IMG/VR virus record: IMGVR_UViG_3300006315_000011 | Coordinates: 1 to 23,554 of that record | DNA: 23,554 nucleotides | Strand: one strand, 5' to 3' | Source: a virus | Shown: piece by piece, positions 14,513-21,308 of the stretch | Position numbering within the stretch: position 1 is the first letter of the stretch | Layout: every line of letters starts with the position of its first letter | Position numbers and translations under genes: made by a program | Notes under the pieces: generated by a model | Database searches by the model: none | The model's input: only the letters and a program-made list of their open reading frames with translations | Told to the model about the DNA's origin: nothing

Positions 14513-14722
14513 ATGGCTAAGGTTACAGTCATATCATACCACAACGGAGGTATGCCCAGGGAGATGGAAGGTGGAACACCATCTGAGCTTGCTCAGGAGT
14601 TAGACCTTTCACTTCAAGGTGTTCAAATACATGTAGACAGTGGTGAGGCTAACCCCTCTCAAACTCTCGCTGATGGTCAATTTGTCTCTTTTCAAAAGAG
14701 CAAAGTAGCATCAGGTAAGTAG
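14513..14722 (+). CDS. Ubiquitin-like beta-grasp protein (69 aa)
   Basis: Predicted protein tag of a ubiquitin-like conjugation system. The sequence fits the beta-grasp order: strand KVTVISYH (3-10), second strand to about 19, helix GTPSELAQELDLS (21-33), strand VQIHVDS (37-43), and a final strand after TLADGQFVSF (51-60). That LADGQ-V-F turn and strand is the ThiS/MoaD and PRTRC-C hallmark. The tail is KSKVASGK, so the usual terminal Gly-Gly is replaced by Ser-Gly-Lys; a JAMM enzyme could trim the Lys. GGAGGATAAA precedes the ATG. Codons are GC-richer than those of its neighbours, like the capsid gene. A sulfur carrier for cofactor synthesis is the alternative, but no ThiG, MoaE or other pathway gene is present. 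Confidence 0.75.
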   Translation: MAKVTVISYHNGGMPREMEGGTPSELAQELDLSLQGVQIHVDSGEANPSQTLADGQFVSFQKSKVASGK

Positions 14723-14741
14723 ACCCCCGTCTGCATACAAG

Positions 14742-14779
14742 AGAATAGGGTGGAGTTTAATTACTTCGCCCTGTTCTTT
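14742..14779 (+). terminator. Terminator or attenuator between Ubl and E2-like genes
   Basis: A 15-bp stem pairs 14742-14756 with 14763-14777, including three G-U pairs, across the loop TTAATT. A short TTT follows before AAATAA. The weak T-run suggests partial read-through, so that Ubl message would exceed message for the three enzymes. Confidence 0.6.
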
Positions 14780-14817
14780 AAATAATCCCAATAACTTAAA
14801 TAATAATAGGAGTTATC

Positions 14818-16533
14818 ATGACTTACAAAATTGATAAAACCTTTCCAGCTAAGTTAGGAGATATCACAGATACACGATCATTACCATTTGATGTAAATGC
14901 TGCAGCTTATGAAGGTAGGCTAAAAAGAGTATTTAAAAAATTGTTTGGTAGTAAAGTAGTAGAAAATGATTATTGGAAAACATTAATCAAAATGATATCT
15001 GATCCAAGTGAAACATTTGGATTAGTAGAAATTGATGGTTTCCTATCTGATATGGCAGGAAAAGATGATATTGCATTAGTATTTAATATGGGAATACCAA
15101 GACTCAGAGGAAGAAAAGTATATTATTTAGACAGAATATATGTCAGAATACCAATGAATGGTGATTTAAAATTTTACAATTCAGGAGTAGAAGATAATGA
15201 TGTATATTGGCATAGAGATTACAAAGTTCCTGCTTGGCATCCACATATTCAAAATGCAGTAGCGTGCTTAGGTTCTTATGGAACTGAATTAGCAAGATGG
15301 AAATCTGAAGCAAACCCTATAATGTATCTAAGAACATTACATATGTTTTTAAATACTTGGAATAGACAATCACCTTTCTTTGATATTAATAATACTAAGA
15401 TAGATTGCCAAAGTGATAAAAAATCATTTAAACGATCAAAGATATTTAATAGTATGTTTAATCATGGTCTTGCAAGTCCAGTAAAAGATGAAAATTTTAT
15501 CCTGGATAATGTAGATAAAATAAATACTGGTTCAGTTCAAAATGATATTTATATCATTGCGACAATTCTCGAAAAATTGTATTATGTAAGAGAAGAAATC
15601 GGAAGTGAAATAGTTAATAAAATGGATCATGATCAATGGCTTTACTTACGAAATATTCGTGAAGAAGCTGTTAAAAGAAGAGGTAATTCTAGTTCATTAA
15701 GGTCTTTTAGTCTCATTAATGCAAGAACAGAAGTTCGTATTATGATTCCTGAATATAATAATGAAACTACTTCAGTAAGAAGAAAATCAATAAAGACGCA
15801 TAAAGTAACAAGTACAATGGAATATAGAGTAAAGAGCAATATATTAAGAGGATTAGAATATTTAATGGAAAATATATATAATTATCTTAACAAGGGAGCT
15901 ATTTATAATATAATTTACAATGAATCTGATTATGCTATTAATCTTTATTGTAATTATTATGTTCCAGCTTTAGTTAGAGAACAGAAGCATTTTGATAAAA
16001 TGACAAAGACTGATAAATATCTAACAAGAATACATAGGGAAAGTAGCGAAAGCAATATAGTAGATAGATCGTTAACTAAAGATAAGTTTGATTTAATAAG
16101 AAGAACTAATCTTAGAAGACAGAGAACTAATCGAATGATGATAAAACATTATGGTGATATGTTTACAAAAGATTTTGTCTATGAAACTATTTGCAATAAA
16201 ATAAAAGATGCTTTCTATTATCAAATAGATGAAGAAATGCATGATTGGCAAACATACCCTAATCTTTTGGATAGAGGAGCTTTCTGGATTAATGCAAATA
16301 TATATCACGCTGATGAAGATTATGATATGCATGTAGAAATCTTAGAAGGATTATATCCAAATAACTTAACTGAATTAATAAAACTATATGAAGATATTAA
16401 AAGAAGTGTAATTCAAGAAGAATCTAAACATTTAATATCAGAGTATTCAAAAGTCATAAGGAGTCTAGAAAAATATGACAAAACTAATCATACCGAAGAA
16501 GATACACAACAAGTACACCTATCTTTTGAATAG
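14818..16533 (+). CDS. E2-like ubiquitin-conjugating domain fused to a large helical region (571 aa)
   Basis: Residues about 65-190 look like an E2 (UBC-fold) domain: strands at FGLVEID (67-73), IALVFNM (85-91) and VYYLDRIYVRIP (101-112), then the loop PAWHPHIQNAVACLG with His141, His143 and Cys150, then a helix with the segment MFLNTWNRQSPFFDI (176-190). An HPH-x-n-CLG arrangement ahead of a helix with an N-x-x-SP-aromatic end is what prokaryotic E2 families show; Cys150 would take the Ubl as a thioester. Residues 200-571 are charged, Tyr/Asn/Lys-rich and helical, with no family I know; they may choose the target. TAGGAG precedes the ATG. The end overlaps the JAB gene by 59 bases. The E2 call rests on this motif and on the neighbours. 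Confidence 0.7.
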   Translation: MTYKIDKTFPAKLGDITDTRSLPFDVNAAAYEGRLKRVFKKLFGSKVVENDYWKTLIKMISDPSETFGLVEIDGFLSDMAGKDDIALVFNMGIPRLRGRKVYYLDRIYVRIPMNGDLKFYNSGVEDNDVYWHRDYKVPAWHPHIQNAVACLGSYGTELARWKSEANPIMYLRTLHMFLNTWNRQSPFFDINNTKIDCQSDKKSFKRSKIFNSMFNHGLASPVKDENFILDNVDKINTGSVQNDIYIIATILEKLYYVREEIGSEIVNKMDHDQWLYLRNIREEAVKRRGNSSSLRSFSLINARTEVRIMIPEYNNETTSVRRKSIKTHKVTSTMEYRVKSNILRGLEYLMENIYNYLNKGAIYNIIYNESDYAINLYCNYYVPALVREQKHFDKMTKTDKYLTRIHRESSESNIVDRSLTKDKFDLIRRTNLRRQRTNRMMIKHYGDMFTKDFVYETICNKIKDAFYYQIDEEMHDWQTYPNLLDRGAFWINANIYHADEDYDMHVEILEGLYPNNLTELIKLYEDIKRSVIQEESKHLISEYSKVIRSLEKYDKTNHTEEDTQQVHLSFE

Positions 16534-17305
16534 GTTTAAGAGCTTAGAGTGGTCTGGCCCTGCATGGTATAGAGTTAAAACAGATAAAGATGGTTTTCCA
16601 ACTGAATGGAGAATTATTCATTTCCACCCATTAGATTTAGGCAGTCATGCTGCTACTGAGTGGGAAGCTAAAGACTTAGCTAAAATTCTGAAAGAAACCT
16701 ATGCTCTTATGCCAAGCTTGAAGAAAGCTTACATGGGTTTAATCCATAGTCATAATACTATGGGAGCGTTCCTATCTGGAACGGATACAAGTACAATCCA
16801 AGAGATGGCACCTGATGAAGGATTCTACGGCAGCTTGGTGGTCGCCAGTGCTGGCAAAGCTTTGCATGCCTTTGGATTTGGTTACAAAGATCAGTATAAA
16901 TGTGCTCATTCAATAGAGGTTGATGAAAAGGATATAGAAATTAATATTCCTGGTTTAAAACCTGAAGATGAATGGGTCGCTATAGCTGATAAGATTGAAA
17001 AAGATAAGCCAAAATCTAAATCTGGAAATCAGGTAGCTATATGGAATGGTCGTAGATTACAAAATGTTCCAAGTGTTAATAACATTGCGAATAATAAGAA
17101 AGAAGTTATATTAAGTAAATTAACTGCTAAGAAGAGAAAAATAGCTGAAGATATTTTATTAAAAAATGATGCAGCAGAAATGACTGATATAGCAGCAGAA
17201 GATGCTTTACATAATCTTGGAATTGATCTAATGGATGTATTAAAGCTTATGGACGACGATTATAATTATGGATATGGATATGGAGGCTATAATGGATTCT
17301 ACTAG
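16475..17305 (+). CDS. JAMM/JAB-domain Ubl isopeptidase (276 aa)
   Basis: Predicted zinc metalloprotease that removes Ubl from targets and may trim the Ubl tail. The JAMM motif is complete: Glu25 in LEWSG, then His91-Ser-His93, Ser101 and Asp104 in HSHNTMGAFLSGTD, the spacing H-x-H-x7-S-x-x-D. This form, with EWSG and MGAFLSGTD, is like the JAB proteins that accompany E1 and E2 genes in prokaryotes. Residues 145-245 are a charged helical region of unknown role, and the C-terminus is acidic then Tyr/Gly-rich (YGYGYGGYNGFY). AAGGAG is 11 bases before the ATG, inside the upstream gene; the start overlaps the E2-like frame by 59 bases, and its stop lies in the E1-like gene. Confidence 0.88.
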   Translation: MTKLIIPKKIHNKYTYLLNRFKSLEWSGPAWYRVKTDKDGFPTEWRIIHFHPLDLGSHAATEWEAKDLAKILKETYALMPSLKKAYMGLIHSHNTMGAFLSGTDTSTIQEMAPDEGFYGSLVVASAGKALHAFGFGYKDQYKCAHSIEVDEKDIEINIPGLKPEDEWVAIADKIEKDKPKSKSGNQVAIWNGRRLQNVPSVNNIANNKKEVILSKLTAKKRKIAEDILLKNDAAEMTDIAAEDALHNLGIDLMDVLKLMDDDYNYGYGYGGYNGFY

Positions 17306-17957
17306 ATTCTTAAGAAATAAGGATTTGATTCCTCAGAGTAAACTAGACCATATTGGTCTGGTTGGATTAGGAGGTATCGGCTCACAGCTGGTACCTCTTT
17401 TATCCATCATGGGATGGAAGAAAATGACAGGCTGGGATCACGATAGATTAGAAGAACATAATTTGAGTACCACAATGTTTCCTCAAGGAGCATTAGGTAA
17501 ATCAAAAGCTGAAGTAGCTGAAAATGTTTCTAATTTATATTCTGTTAAGCCTGGGAATAATAGATTCTTTGAAGAATACTATGATGAAACAAGTCCCACA
17601 TTACCGAAAATGATCACTTGTCTTGACAATATGGAAGGTAGGTTAGTAGCCTATAATAAATGGTTAGAACAAAGCAATAGACAATTCTTTATTGATTTAA
17701 GAATGGGAGCTATGGCTATGGAAATCATTACAGCAACTAAGGAAAATGATAAGTATTTAGATACCTGGTTGCCTTCTCATGAGATAAGTGAAGAACCGTG
17801 TACAATGAAGCATACAATCTTTACAGCTTCTATAGTTGGAGGCTTTGGCGTAGACCAAGTCTTTAATGTAGTTGCAAAAAGACCGTACTATTCGTATATT
17901 TGGATAGGCTTAATGCCACTCGAAATGCGAACTGAAAATCTCATTATAACACACTAA
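17292..17957 (+). CDS. E1-like Ubl-activating enzyme, ThiF family (221 aa)
   Basis: Predicted to adenylate the Ubl C-terminus and pass it to the E2-like protein. The Rossmann nucleotide site GLGGIGS is at residues 25-31. It is followed by acidic Asp49 and Asp51 with EEHNLS (53-58), the usual ribose and metal site of ThiF/E1 enzymes, and by CLDNMEGR (110-117). Cys170 in EEPC is the best candidate for the thioester cysteine. The paired C-x-x-C zinc sites of ThiF and MoeB are missing, which fits the compact E1 forms of conjugation systems. I choose ATG at 17292 with GGAGG 5 bases ahead; a start at 17268 would add 8 residues with no binding site. It overlaps the JAB gene by 14 bases. Confidence 0.87.
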   Translation: MDSTRFLRNKDLIPQSKLDHIGLVGLGGIGSQLVPLLSIMGWKKMTGWDHDRLEEHNLSTTMFPQGALGKSKAEVAENVSNLYSVKPGNNRFFEEYYDETSPTLPKMITCLDNMEGRLVAYNKWLEQSNRQFFIDLRMGAMAMEIITATKENDKYLDTWLPSHEISEEPCTMKHTIFTASIVGGFGVDQVFNVVAKRPYYSYIWIGLMPLEMRTENLIITH

Positions 17958-17969
17958 AAAGGATAGTCT

Positions 17970-18830
17970 ATGGATATTAATGTAAGAAAAGTATCTACTG
18001 ACTGGACGACTTTGCCTACTGGGCTGACTTGGTATTTTATCGGTCAGCCTAAGACAGGCAAGACAACACAAGCCAGTAAATGGAGTCCCAATGGAGCCGA
18101 GGGATGTCTATTAATTGATACTGATTTAGGCTCTGATTTTGTTGAGGGAGCGAATACAGTTACTGTTACCTCATTAAATACACCAGTAAGACCCAAAATG
18201 ATTGATAATAAACAAGTTACAGAAAAAGGTAAGCCCGTTACAGAGGTTGTACCACATGATGAACGAGGTTATTATAATCGATCTGGAGATATCGGAGAAC
18301 CAATGGAAGTATATTCTATGGTAGAAGTATACTATTGGTTAAAAGATAATTTGAAAAAATTACCTTATGATACTATTGTTATTGATACTATTGATCATAT
18401 AAATAGATGGATCGAATTAGAAGTATGTGATGAAAGAGGTCAAGCAGCAATGGGAGAAGGTTCTTCCTGGGGTGCTGACTGGGCACAGGCGAGAAAGAAG
18501 AATCTTGACATAGTAAAAAAGTTTCAAACATTGTGTAAATCATTAGGGAGAAATCTCGTATTGATTTCACATGCTAAAAGTACCGTTATAACTGACGGTA
18601 AAAGTCAGTTAGGGCCAGAGTTACCCAGAGGGTTAGCTTATGCTTTAACTGCAAGTGCAGATGTGATAGGGTACGCTATGGCTTCTAAAGAAGATGGAAA
18701 ATTCTATCTTTCTTTTAAGGCATATGATGAAAGGACTGTAGGCAGTAGGCTCAAGCCGTTAGCCCAGAAAGTCCTTGAATTTGATTACGATAGCGTAATA
18801 AATGAAATCCTAAAATACAAAGAAGAATAG
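17970..18830 (+). CDS. Sak4-like RecA-fold recombination ATPase (286 aa)
   Basis: Single-strand annealing recombinases of the Sak4 type are small RecA-core NTPases coded next to an SSB in many phages. Here Walker A GQPKTGKTT lies at residues 25-33, Walker B TIVIDTID at 135-142, and a polar loop with LISHAKS at 198-204. The acidic, Gly-rich GEGSSWGADW segment at 162-171 is also typical of this group. AAGGAT precedes the ATG, 12 bases after the E1-like gene, so it is in one transcript with the Ubl cassette. An SSB-like candidate follows directly, supporting the assignment. Confidence 0.8.
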   Translation: MDINVRKVSTDWTTLPTGLTWYFIGQPKTGKTTQASKWSPNGAEGCLLIDTDLGSDFVEGANTVTVTSLNTPVRPKMIDNKQVTEKGKPVTEVVPHDERGYYNRSGDIGEPMEVYSMVEVYYWLKDNLKKLPYDTIVIDTIDHINRWIELEVCDERGQAAMGEGSSWGADWAQARKKNLDIVKKFQTLCKSLGRNLVLISHAKSTVITDGKSQLGPELPRGLAYALTASADVIGYAMASKEDGKFYLSFKAYDERTVGSRLKPLAQKVLEFDYDSVINEILKYKEE

Positions 18831-18839
18831 GAGACGCCT

Positions 18840-19475
18840 ATGCCATTTAGAGGTTCTTACGAACAAAGTTCAGACAACTCAGGAGGAGCAAATTTTCTTG
18901 GATATCAAGAGGTTGCATTAACTGATGTTGTAGATAAATCAGCTGATTATCCAAATATGGATATGTTTCTAGAAATACATTTTAGAAATGGAAATTCACA
19001 ATATCCCTGGAAATATAGTCTATTAGGCTCATTTGACAGAGAAGATGATGATACTATATCTGGAAATAGCAGTTTATTAAAAAGAATCCTGTACTTTACT
19101 GATGCTATTGGCTGGTCTGGTGGTGTTAATAAATATGGTAAGTGGGTAGACAATGATGATAAAGCTGTAGAAGATATTGCAGGTTTATTCAATAGTGAGT
19201 TTACTGCTGCCAATTATGGATTAACAGATTCAGAAGCTGAACATAAGTATTATATATATACTTATAAGAAGTGGAATGAAAAAGCTGGAAAAGCATACAC
19301 TACTGTATGTCCAAAAATTGTAAAGAATGACGAAAGAAATCGAAATGATCTCGAAAGTTATATCAAATACATGAAAGCTAATAAATTCATTGTAGAGCAC
19401 GATGATACAAAAACACCTGTTTCTAATGGGGACATGACCAGTACCACTACTGGTAGTTCTCGAAACATGTTCTAA
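18840..19475 (+). CDS. Putative single-stranded DNA-binding protein (211 aa)
   Basis: Called from place and shape more than motif. It lies 9 bases after the Sak4-like gene and just before the primase-helicase, the usual location of phage SSB-like proteins. Residues 20-170 alternate beta-type segments with aromatic residues, as in OB folds. The C-terminal 35 residues are disordered, Ser/Thr/Asn-rich, and end in Asn-Met-Phe, a hydrophobic tip like those SSBs use to bind partners, though the acidic tail is weak. GGAGACGCCT lies ahead of the ATG. DUF669-like proteins are the known comparison. Confidence 0.5.
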   Translation: MPFRGSYEQSSDNSGGANFLGYQEVALTDVVDKSADYPNMDMFLEIHFRNGNSQYPWKYSLLGSFDREDDDTISGNSSLLKRILYFTDAIGWSGGVNKYGKWVDNDDKAVEDIAGLFNSEFTAANYGLTDSEAEHKYYIYTYKKWNEKAGKAYTTVCPKIVKNDERNRNDLESYIKYMKANKFIVEHDDTKTPVSNGDMTSTTTGSSRNMF

Positions 19476-21308
19476 GTGGAACTTTATCACGAAGTAGCGA
19501 TAGGGGGCCCTCAGAACAGAGGGCTCCTTATTCCTCAGGAACAAGTGATTGATGTTATATTAGAACACGGTCAAAAATATGCTGTATACAAGAGTCTATA
19601 TCTATACGATGAAGAAGGAAGACAGTATCATAAGCTAAGAAAAACATTTAAAGATTTTCTAGGTAAGAGATACATAAAAGATGTATTAATTGATATAGAT
19701 AGAGCTGATAACACTGACGAATATACACTAAACAAAACAAAAAGTGTATTATTTGAATTAGAAGAGTTAGGAGTTCAAAAACGCTCTTATAATATCTATT
19801 TTAGTGGAACTGGATATCATATAATAATAAGTGGAGAATGTTTTAATTTCCCAGAAGGAAGTTCGGATTTACCGTTTATTGTTAAAGAAACTATGAATAA
19901 TTTATTCAGTGATATAGATTTAGCAGTATATAATAGAACATCAATATATAGATGTGAAGCTACCTTGAATCCAAAATCTGGATTATATAAAATTCCATTA
20001 AATCATAAAGAAATAAATACTCTTTCAGCTGAAGATATAATATCTAATGCTAAAGATCAAATTATATCTCAAGGTGAACCTATTTGGGGAGATGGTGAGT
20101 TACAAAAGAATGTACTTACTGAAGTTCCAAAAATAAGGGTTATGGAATCAAATGTAGAACCACGCAATATAGTGCCCTGTGTTCAAAAGATGTATAAACT
20201 TGGCCCAGAAGAAGGATCAAGAAATAATACTTTGATGCGAATAGCATCCCATTTCTTTAGGCACGGTATACCAAGTGAAGCAGCTAAGGCTTCATTATTG
20301 CATTGGAATAACGGACAATTAAGAAACGATGTAATTATAAAAAAGGTAGAAGACACCTATCGTGGTGGATACAAATATGGCTGTAAAGATGTATTAATGG
20401 CTAAGTACTGCCAAACGCATTGTATCCATTACAAAAGAAAAGATTATTTGATTGATGTAAAGAATAGTGAAGAGCTGCAATCAGAATTGGCAGAGAGATT
20501 AGAAACTGATTTTTCTGGTAGAACAATTGATTTAGCTCAGTCATTAGGAGTACATGATAAAGATGCAACAGTATATCCAGGTGAATTAGTAACTATATTT
20601 GGATCAACAGGAGCTAACAAAACGGCTCTTGCTCAAAATATAGTGCTAGGTTATAATGCTGAGTATGATCAAATAGTCAAAGAAAAACAAATACCAACAT
20701 TATTCTTATCTTTAGAATTATCAGGATTTGTAATGCATAGAAGAAATTTACAAATTGTTTCAGGAGCAGATAAAAATACTGTAATGAACAAATATAAAGC
20801 TCTCTATGATTACCACAAAGAAGAACTAAGCCACATAATAATGCAATCAGTAAGCCCCACAATACCACAAATACAAGACAAGATTAAACAGCTGCAACCT
20901 AAATGTGTTGTAATTGATTATATAGACCTCGTAGATGTACCTTTTAATAAAAGAGGAGAGTACGAAAAGCTTAATTATATAAGCCACTCTCTATCAAATG
21001 TTGCAGTAAATGAAGATATTATTATCATACAGATTTCTCAAGTATCAAGAGATTACTCTAGAAATCAGATAATGGATTTATATGCAGCTAAAGGGAGTGG
21101 AGCAATTGAAAATGCTTCAAGAAAAGTTATTGGTATAACAGGTTCTTCAGATGAAACTGAAAAGAAAGTCTCTTTATTCAAGAACAGCGATGGTGATCTC
21201 TTCGATGTCAAGTTAGAATGGACACCATCATTTAGATTAAAGAGAAAAAAGACTGAAGAAAAAATAGATAAGCCAATGAAAAAGAAATTCACAATAGTGG
21301 AGGAATAA
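19476..21308 (+). CDS. Primase-helicase fusion (610 aa)
   Basis: An AEP-type primase and a DnaB-type helicase in one chain, for phage DNA replication. Residues 65-175 hold the primase signature: DVLIDID (Asp73, Asp75), the SGTGYH loop (110-115, His115) and DIDLAVYNR with YRCEAT and YKIPL further on. Residues 230-320 form a linker domain with Cys303, Cys312 and Cys316, a likely metal site. The helicase shows Walker A GSTGANKT (366-373), Walker B CVVIDYID (477-484) and QISQVSR (519-525). It starts with GTG at the base after the preceding stop, with no good binding site, so it depends on coupling. The stop overlaps the next ATG (TAATG). Confidence 0.88.
   Translation: MELYHEVAIGGPQNRGLLIPQEQVIDVILEHGQKYAVYKSLYLYDEEGRQYHKLRKTFKDFLGKRYIKDVLIDIDRADNTDEYTLNKTKSVLFELEELGVQKRSYNIYFSGTGYHIIISGECFNFPEGSSDLPFIVKETMNNLFSDIDLAVYNRTSIYRCEATLNPKSGLYKIPLNHKEINTLSAEDIISNAKDQIISQGEPIWGDGELQKNVLTEVPKIRVMESNVEPRNIVPCVQKMYKLGPEEGSRNNTLMRIASHFFRHGIPSEAAKASLLHWNNGQLRNDVIIKKVEDTYRGGYKYGCKDVLMAKYCQTHCIHYKRKDYLIDVKNSEELQSELAERLETDFSGRTIDLAQSLGVHDKDATVYPGELVTIFGSTGANKTALAQNIVLGYNAEYDQIVKEKQIPTLFLSLELSGFVMHRRNLQIVSGADKNTVMNKYKALYDYHKEELSHIIMQSVSPTIPQIQDKIKQLQPKCVVIDYIDLVDVPFNKRGEYEKLNYISHSLSNVAVNEDIIIIQISQVSRDYSRNQIMDLYAAKGSGAIENASRKVIGITGSSDETEKKVSLFKNSDGDLFDVKLEWTPSFRLKRKKTEEKIDKPMKKKFTIVEE

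Follow-up and report, generated by a model that had tools for sequence, protein, structure and literature searches.

Most of what is known of ubiquitin-like conjugation in bacteria concerns defence against phages. In the present case a set of genes for such a pathway is found on the phage side: a cassette encoding a ubiquitin-like protein (Ubl), an E2-like protein, a JAB-type (JAMM) protease and an E1 enzyme of the ThiF family lies in a 23.5 kb IMG/VR virus record, IMGVR_UViG_3300006315_000011 (23,554 nucleotides, referred to below as the window), and extends to the cultured phages crAss001 and DAC15, so that its function can now be tested. The explanation we favour, at somewhat better than even probability, is a reversible phage-encoded Ubl-conjugation system in which a rapidly diverging domain of the E2 selects the substrates, most likely among proteins of the host.

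The Bil operon (BilABCD) has the same four components, and its letters A to D also follow the order Ubl, E2, deubiquitinating enzyme, E1. BilA has two Ubl domains, BilB has a CEHH motif and BilD is a pseudo-dimeric E1 with a Cys domain (PMC11354881). The window differs from it at each point and, by these features, does not belong to Bil: its Ubl is one domain of 69 residues and not a tandem, the HPH of its E2 precedes Cys150 with no conserved His after that Cys, and its E1 is a single domain of 221 residues in place of an inactive plus an active adenylation domain, the PADLOC BilD model scoring only 16.7 bits. The plasmid PRTRC system, presumably the same as the operons catalogued as row 6d by Iyer et al. 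2006, again comprises Ubl, E2, JAB and E1. Membership is rejected here too, the window ThiF protein scoring 25.8 bits against a cut-off of 144.75 for NCBIfam TIGR03736; PRTRC models do not match the window JAB, E2 or Ubl up to E=1, and of the PRTRC partner genes (ParB-like, E and F) no ParB is seen among the Pfam-scanned window proteins, which do not include every small open reading frame (ORF). The E2s of row 6d operons lack the classical His before the Cys (PMC1779556), whereas in the window E2 HPH stands before it. A preliminary description of the window, made from its letters, had likened the locus to PRTRC and Bil; components and order bear out the likeness, but not membership, the tested defining features of both being absent.

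CBASS (cyclic-oligonucleotide-based antiphage signalling system) type II has E1, E2 and JAB activities in Cap2 and Cap3, but there E2 and E1 are fused, beside a CD-NTase, and no Ubl is included (locus L103 is an example of the fusion), whereas the window has four separate genes including one for a Ubl, and no CD-NTase is recognised among its scanned proteins. With eukaryotic UBC-type E2s the window E2 shares an HPN-like motif, the Cys and the N..S/D-P spacing; it differs from them in an additional C-terminal domain of 370 residues and has no Pfam-level similarity to them.

The four cassette proteins

The preliminary description had placed a four-gene Ubl-E2-JAB-E1 cassette at 14513-17957. All four ORFs lie within these limits, and homology, catalytic residues, the predicted Ubl fold and synteny agree with the assignment. 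The features of a ubiquitin-like modifier, a beta-grasp fold and a C-terminal Gly, are present in the Ubl as a predicted fold and an invariant Ser-Gly. Its AlphaFold2 (AF2) model has a mean predicted local distance difference test score (pLDDT) of 83.7 with the elements in beta-grasp order, and the highest TM-score in Foldseek, 0.75, is with TtuB, a sulfur carrier of the Ubl type, with SUMO and archaeal ubiquitin also matched; no other fold was obtained that would speak against the beta-grasp assignment made earlier for this 69-residue protein. The family profile matches ThiS (2cu3) in PDB with E=2e-6, the top-ranked match being a repeat protein in which no single repeat reaches significance. 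Searches of Pfam, NCBIfam, PADLOC and PHROG with the window Ubl gave nothing significant. The Ser-Gly end is kept in 24/24 aligned sequences, followed by a tail of 0-11 residues, and two of the proteins stop exactly at the Gly; the single residue after it in the window is presumed to be cut off by JAB.

The protein in second position consists of a UBC-like domain of approximately residues 1-200 and a mostly helical C-terminal domain of 370 residues, so that its description as an E2-type protein, which the HPH...Cys150 motif and a UBC profile match uphold, applies only to about the first 200 of its 571 residues. Its active-site residues are HPH141-143, C150, N182 and S185, the last at what we take to be the position of the conserved Asp/Ser of eukaryotic E2s, and H141, H143, C150, G152 and S185 are invariant in all 26 aligned sequences. 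For comparison a UBC profile was built from four yeast E2 sequences, every one of which was confirmed as Pfam UQ_con. In the active-site half, hhalign of the E2 core of the window family with this profile pairs HPH with HPN, C150 with the Cys and N182/S185-P with N/D-P, and the score is 31.6 as against a maximum of 20.5 among 60 column-shuffled profiles, a match that supports UBC homology at the level of sequence profiles. The AF2 model (pLDDT 87.5) shows an alpha/beta domain at the N-terminus and an extended helical region, with an order of secondary structure compatible with UBC, and the best BFVD Foldseek match of the full protein (E=1.3e-5) is an unnamed protein. A Prok-E2_B search of the window returned nothing, and hhalign of the E2 with CBASS Cap2 and with a candidate E2 from a Natrinema plasmid was not significant. 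The latter plasmid (L105:2240-4379) carries a ThiF gene whose product, by eye, has a JAB-like N-terminus and an E1-like C-terminus, and upstream of it are a small Ubl-like ORF and the E2 candidate, of 134 residues and without an HPH motif.

The third protein reaches only 17.4 bits with Pfam Prok-JAB, under the cut-off of 25. It does carry the JAMM/MPN+ signature (E + HxHx7Sx2D), and the complete set E25, H91-S-H93, S101 and D104 is invariant in 34/34 sequences, crAss phages included, in agreement with the earlier claim that all metal and catalytic residues are in place. The E1 scores 41 bits with Pfam ThiF (cut-off 28.1), has the nucleotide-binding GxGGxGS and a catalytic Cys, and as a profile matches the SUMO, NEDD8, UBA5, MccB and MoeB activating enzymes in PDB. 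A Shine-Dalgarno GGAGG stands before the start at 17292 and not before that at 17268, and for this reason the former start and the numbering Cys170 are used, as in the preliminary description; the longer ORF from 17268 has 229 residues, and the candidate residue is then Cys178. This Cys is invariant in 35/35 aligned sequences, including those of crAss phages and Fpv1, so that both cysteines proposed for thioester formation, Cys150 (26/26) and Cys170, are conserved in homologs.

Cassettes in uncultured phages, Crassvirales and Fipvunavirus

Searches of IMG/VR with the E1 gave 31 and then 80 loci, with 64 distinct E1 sequences and at least 41 distinct complete cassettes in which E1 identity falls to 43%. 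The order Ubl-E2-JAB-E1, which the preliminary description had proposed to look for in related phage genomes, is found in all 41, and recurrence of four genes in one order in 41 distinct relatives argues that the cassette is not a product of chance. The E2 and JAB genes overlap by approximately 40-120 bp in all relatives except the two most distant (59 bp in the window), and the JAB and E1 genes by 4-68 bp, suggesting translational coupling. The cassette normally adjoins a primase-helicase gene and the gene for p211, a conserved protein of 211 residues, and in most relatives E1 is followed by Sak4, which is not recognised in the group of locus L061. Of 38 loci (some overlapping) in which the primase-helicase is preceded by over 7 kb of sequence, L138 alone is without the cassette, and the idea of an optional accessory is rejected. 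The primase-helicase segment of L138, which is related to the others (81% for part of it), stands at a contig end, and the contig may represent a lineage that lost the cassette or an assembly chimera.

A cellular origin is likewise rejected. No relative of the window E1 came up when 84,980 cellular genomes were scanned with a pattern-based method, and a scan of cellular genomes with the crAss E1 profile gave only two contigs of metagenome-assembled genomes (MAGs), L139 and L140, the second of which has crAss-like gene order and is clearly phage-like.

Among annotated phage records the window E1 and JAB match 74-76, nearly all from Bacteroides crAss-like and Flavobacterium Fipvunavirus phages. 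The crAss001 genes gp79-gp78-gp77-gp76 lie between those for primase and uracil-DNA glycosylase; gp77 is the JAMM protein and gp76 the E1, and the window E1 matches the crAss E1 profile with E=2.6e-23 in an alignment that runs through the Cys. In the E2 position gp78 carries HSH...C.G and, further on, a Ser, none of which varies in the crAss group, while the N-terminal domain of gp79 ends in KKIKSG and is followed by a long extension. In the Crassvirales and Fipvunavirus cassettes the Ubl domain ends in KSG (RSG in a few), with an extension of approximately 110-210 residues. The same arrangement occurs in DAC15 (DAC15_91-88), six other crAss genomes, a rodent-faeces phage and Fpv1/FpV4 (FpV4 gp53-52-51-50); Kolpuevirus and Mahlunavirus are among the Crassvirales that have it, and PHROG profiles tie crAss001 gp79 and gp78 to Fpv1 gp58 and gp57. 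These cassettes resemble that of the window in gene order, E1 homology, the JAMM motif, the HxH...CxG and Ser of the E2 position, the SG end of the Ubl and location in the replication module, and differ from it in the long C-terminal extension of the Ubl and in the weak profile similarity of E2 and Ubl, so that the assignment of the latter two in crAss phages is a putative one that leans on position, synteny and motifs.

Existing annotation of the Crassvirales and Fipvunavirus genes is 'thiamine biosynthesis', 'metalloprotease' or hypothetical. A literature search found no account of a Ubl-E2-JAB-E1 cassette in phages, though most subscription papers were outside its coverage and the absence is no proof, and the main texts of the crAss papers PMC7886860 and PMC6235969 contain neither 'ThiF' nor 'ubiquitin'; the cassette is apparently undescribed in these phages. 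Crass-like phages that carry it are common in the human gut.

Two of these cassettes are interrupted. In cr106_1 (L099:1677-2880) the Ubl gene is broken by a free HNH gene exactly behind the KSG motif. The product of the first ORF has IKSGKF as its last residues, and therefore a nearly mature Ubl would be made alone, with the extension as a separate ORF. Rfam shows no intron at this split. In Fpv1 (L033:4970-5215) a group I intron-like element, with 43.4 bits for Rfam RF00028 and so under the gathering score of 50, divides the JAB gene directly before the HSH codons, while the gene is intact in FpV4 (L141). The crAss Ubl extensions end in a conserved motif resembling EI[DN]xMF (e.g. L034:9128-9805, L036:3517-4278), possibly a short docking motif.

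A candidate pathway and its targets

Gene set, gene order, catalytic residues and their conservation suggest a route by which the four proteins very probably carry out conjugation chemistry. JAB would trim the residues after Ser-Gly (one here, 0-11 in relatives and more than 100 in crAss phages), exposing the C-terminal glycine, which E1 would adenylate and then move onto Cys170 as a thioester. The Ubl would pass from E1 to Cys150 of E2, whose UBC-like domain would join it to a target protein, and JAB could take it off again. With no separate E3 apparent, target choice may lie in the large C-terminal domain fused to E2.

The divergence pattern bears on what those targets are. Between the window and the relative L003 the Ubl is 100% identical, E1 96%, the JAMM domain 95%, Sak4 98%, the helicase 92% and p211 84%, while residues 1-200 of E2 are 67% and residues 201-571 only 40% identical. 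In the E2 C-terminal part the rates of nonsynonymous (dN) and synonymous (dS) substitution are 0.56 and 0.93, with dN of 0-0.10 in the other genes of this comparison. In further pairs, too, this part ranks with the most variable segments, and almost all comparisons within crAss phages show lower conservation in the C-terminal than in the N-terminal part of E2; the small genes upstream of the cassette also diverge quickly (46-72%). If the E2 tail picks host-dependent targets, one would expect it to vary while the core for activation and deconjugation stays constant, and since the E2 C-terminal domain diverges far faster, the targets would most likely be host proteins that differ from one host to another, as targets of defence or takeover. 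For host proteins as targets, taken on its own, we put the chances at about even. More tentatively, whole phage lineages, cultured gut Crassvirales included, may use a complete Ubl pathway as a core infection tool in which an E3-like domain of E2 tags host proteins, probably those of defence, a possibility that we rate at somewhat under even. If true, the E2 would combine an HPN-type motif like that of eukaryotes with a fused recognition domain that replaces the E3.

Several observations weigh against host-directed conjugation by this cassette. The E2 gives nothing significant in Pfam, NCBIfam, PADLOC or PHROG, its whole-chain Foldseek search, dominated by the helical part, has no significant PDB match and returns no UBC structure, and E1 is without the usual NxxRQ arginine. 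Compared as profiles, the window family and crAss phages show weak matches for Ubl (E 0.005) and E2 (E 0.003), and crAss Ubl and E2 have no match in structural databases. The dN/dS of the E2 C-terminal part is approximately 0.6 with dS raised too, and relaxed constraint or recombination could be the cause of its fast divergence.

The same chemistry could instead be directed at the replication and recombination proteins of the phage itself (Sak4, p211 and primase-helicase), in a form of control like that by SUMO and ubiquitin on PCNA. The cassette does sit in the replication module: in the marine-type family it adjoins these genes, and in crAss phages it is flanked by those for primase and uracil-DNA glycosylase. 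But a substrate that is itself conserved should keep the domain recognising it from changing, and with Sak4, p211 and helicase 84-98% identical between the window and L003 the E2 C-terminal domains are only 40% identical; we regard this alternative as unlikely, though it is the strongest of those considered. That the cassette is a Bil- or CBASS-like module carried against competing phages, tagging their structural proteins, is improbable: Bil is antiphage with the same four components, and there are weak matches to BilD (E=5.5e-4) and to E1-E2, yet Bil-specific architecture is absent, the cassette is a core element that stays with the replication genes even between deeply diverged phages, and the only cellular relatives are the two MAG contigs mentioned above, one of them clearly phage-like.

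Sulfur carriers need no E2, and every complete cassette includes an E2-like protein whose Cys is invariant, which tells against a system of the ThiS/MoaD/TtuB kind in which a Ubl thiocarboxylate serves thiolation of tRNA or another nucleic acid. Despite the TM-score to TtuB and the profile match to ThiS, and with no sulfurtransferase or thiouridylase recognised in the window proteins scanned with Pfam and PHROG, we give it very little weight. Still less is given to the proposal, from the preliminary description, that the cassette is a decoy in competition with Ubl defence systems of the host and performs no real conjugation. Nothing specific was found in its favour; no catalytic residue varies even between deeply diverged cassettes, so enzyme activity appears to be selected. 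Host-directed conjugation through a variable E2 domain is accordingly the reading retained.

Gene layout and neighbouring features

Tailed-phage genes for an SU10-type major capsid protein, portal, terminase and endolysin are on the minus strand of the window. The plus strand has, in order, small variable genes, Ubl, E2, JAB, E1, Sak4, p211, the primase-helicase, a Gam-like protein and an HNH/endonuclease VII-like protein (Table 1); the Sak4-like ATPase directly after E1 substantiates the earlier statement that the cassette is next to recombination genes. Pfam and PHROG scans gave no family match for p211. Sequences resembling Shine-Dalgarno sites precede the Ubl, E2, JAB, Sak4 and p211 genes, and the cassette is probably expressed together with the replication module.

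Table 1. Positions in the window of the cassette genes and adjoining features
Feature	Coordinates	Strand	Evidence
Ubl, 69 residues, single predicted beta-grasp domain; Ser67-Gly68 at 14711-14716, then 1-residue tail	14513..14722	+	AF2, Foldseek, ThiS profile match
17-bp RNA hairpin in Ubl-E2 gap	14740..14779	+	z=-6.4
E2-like protein, 571 residues; C150 codon 15265-15267	14818..16533	+	Invariant residues, UBC profile match, AF2
JAB/JAMM (MPN+) protease, 276 residues; E25, H91, H93, S101, D104	16475..17305	+	Sub-threshold Prok-JAB, invariant motif
E1/ThiF adenylating enzyme, 221 residues; GLGGIGS; candidate thioester Cys170 codon 17799-17801	17292..17957	+	Pfam ThiF
Sak4-like single-stranded DNA-annealing ATPase	17970..18830	+	PHROG 124 E=2e-25
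p211, conserved 211-residue protein	18840..19475	+	Syntenic in relatives
Primase-helicase (PriCT + DnaB_C)	19476..21308	+	Pfam, PHROG, synteny

Hairpins are common between the Ubl and E2 genes, with z<=-2 in 25/31 gaps, but comparable folding in a control gap led to rejection of the hairpin as a cassette-specific signal. A role as partial terminator or processing site that sets the ratio of Ubl to enzymes is speculative. In L003 (2720-2759) and L004 (6389-6514) the flanks of the hairpin in this gap are nearly identical and the hairpin sequence differs, as if exchanged as a unit. Another stable hairpin is present in the gap 3′ of the Gam-like gene (e.g. L003:10024-10147), followed in several relatives by a conserved GTGAGTAAAAAC stretch. 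A near-full-length relative has an open frame of 2823 codons from L101:11830-20000 to L102:1-301 (G001 31830-40301), the product of which is possibly a giant internal virion protein.

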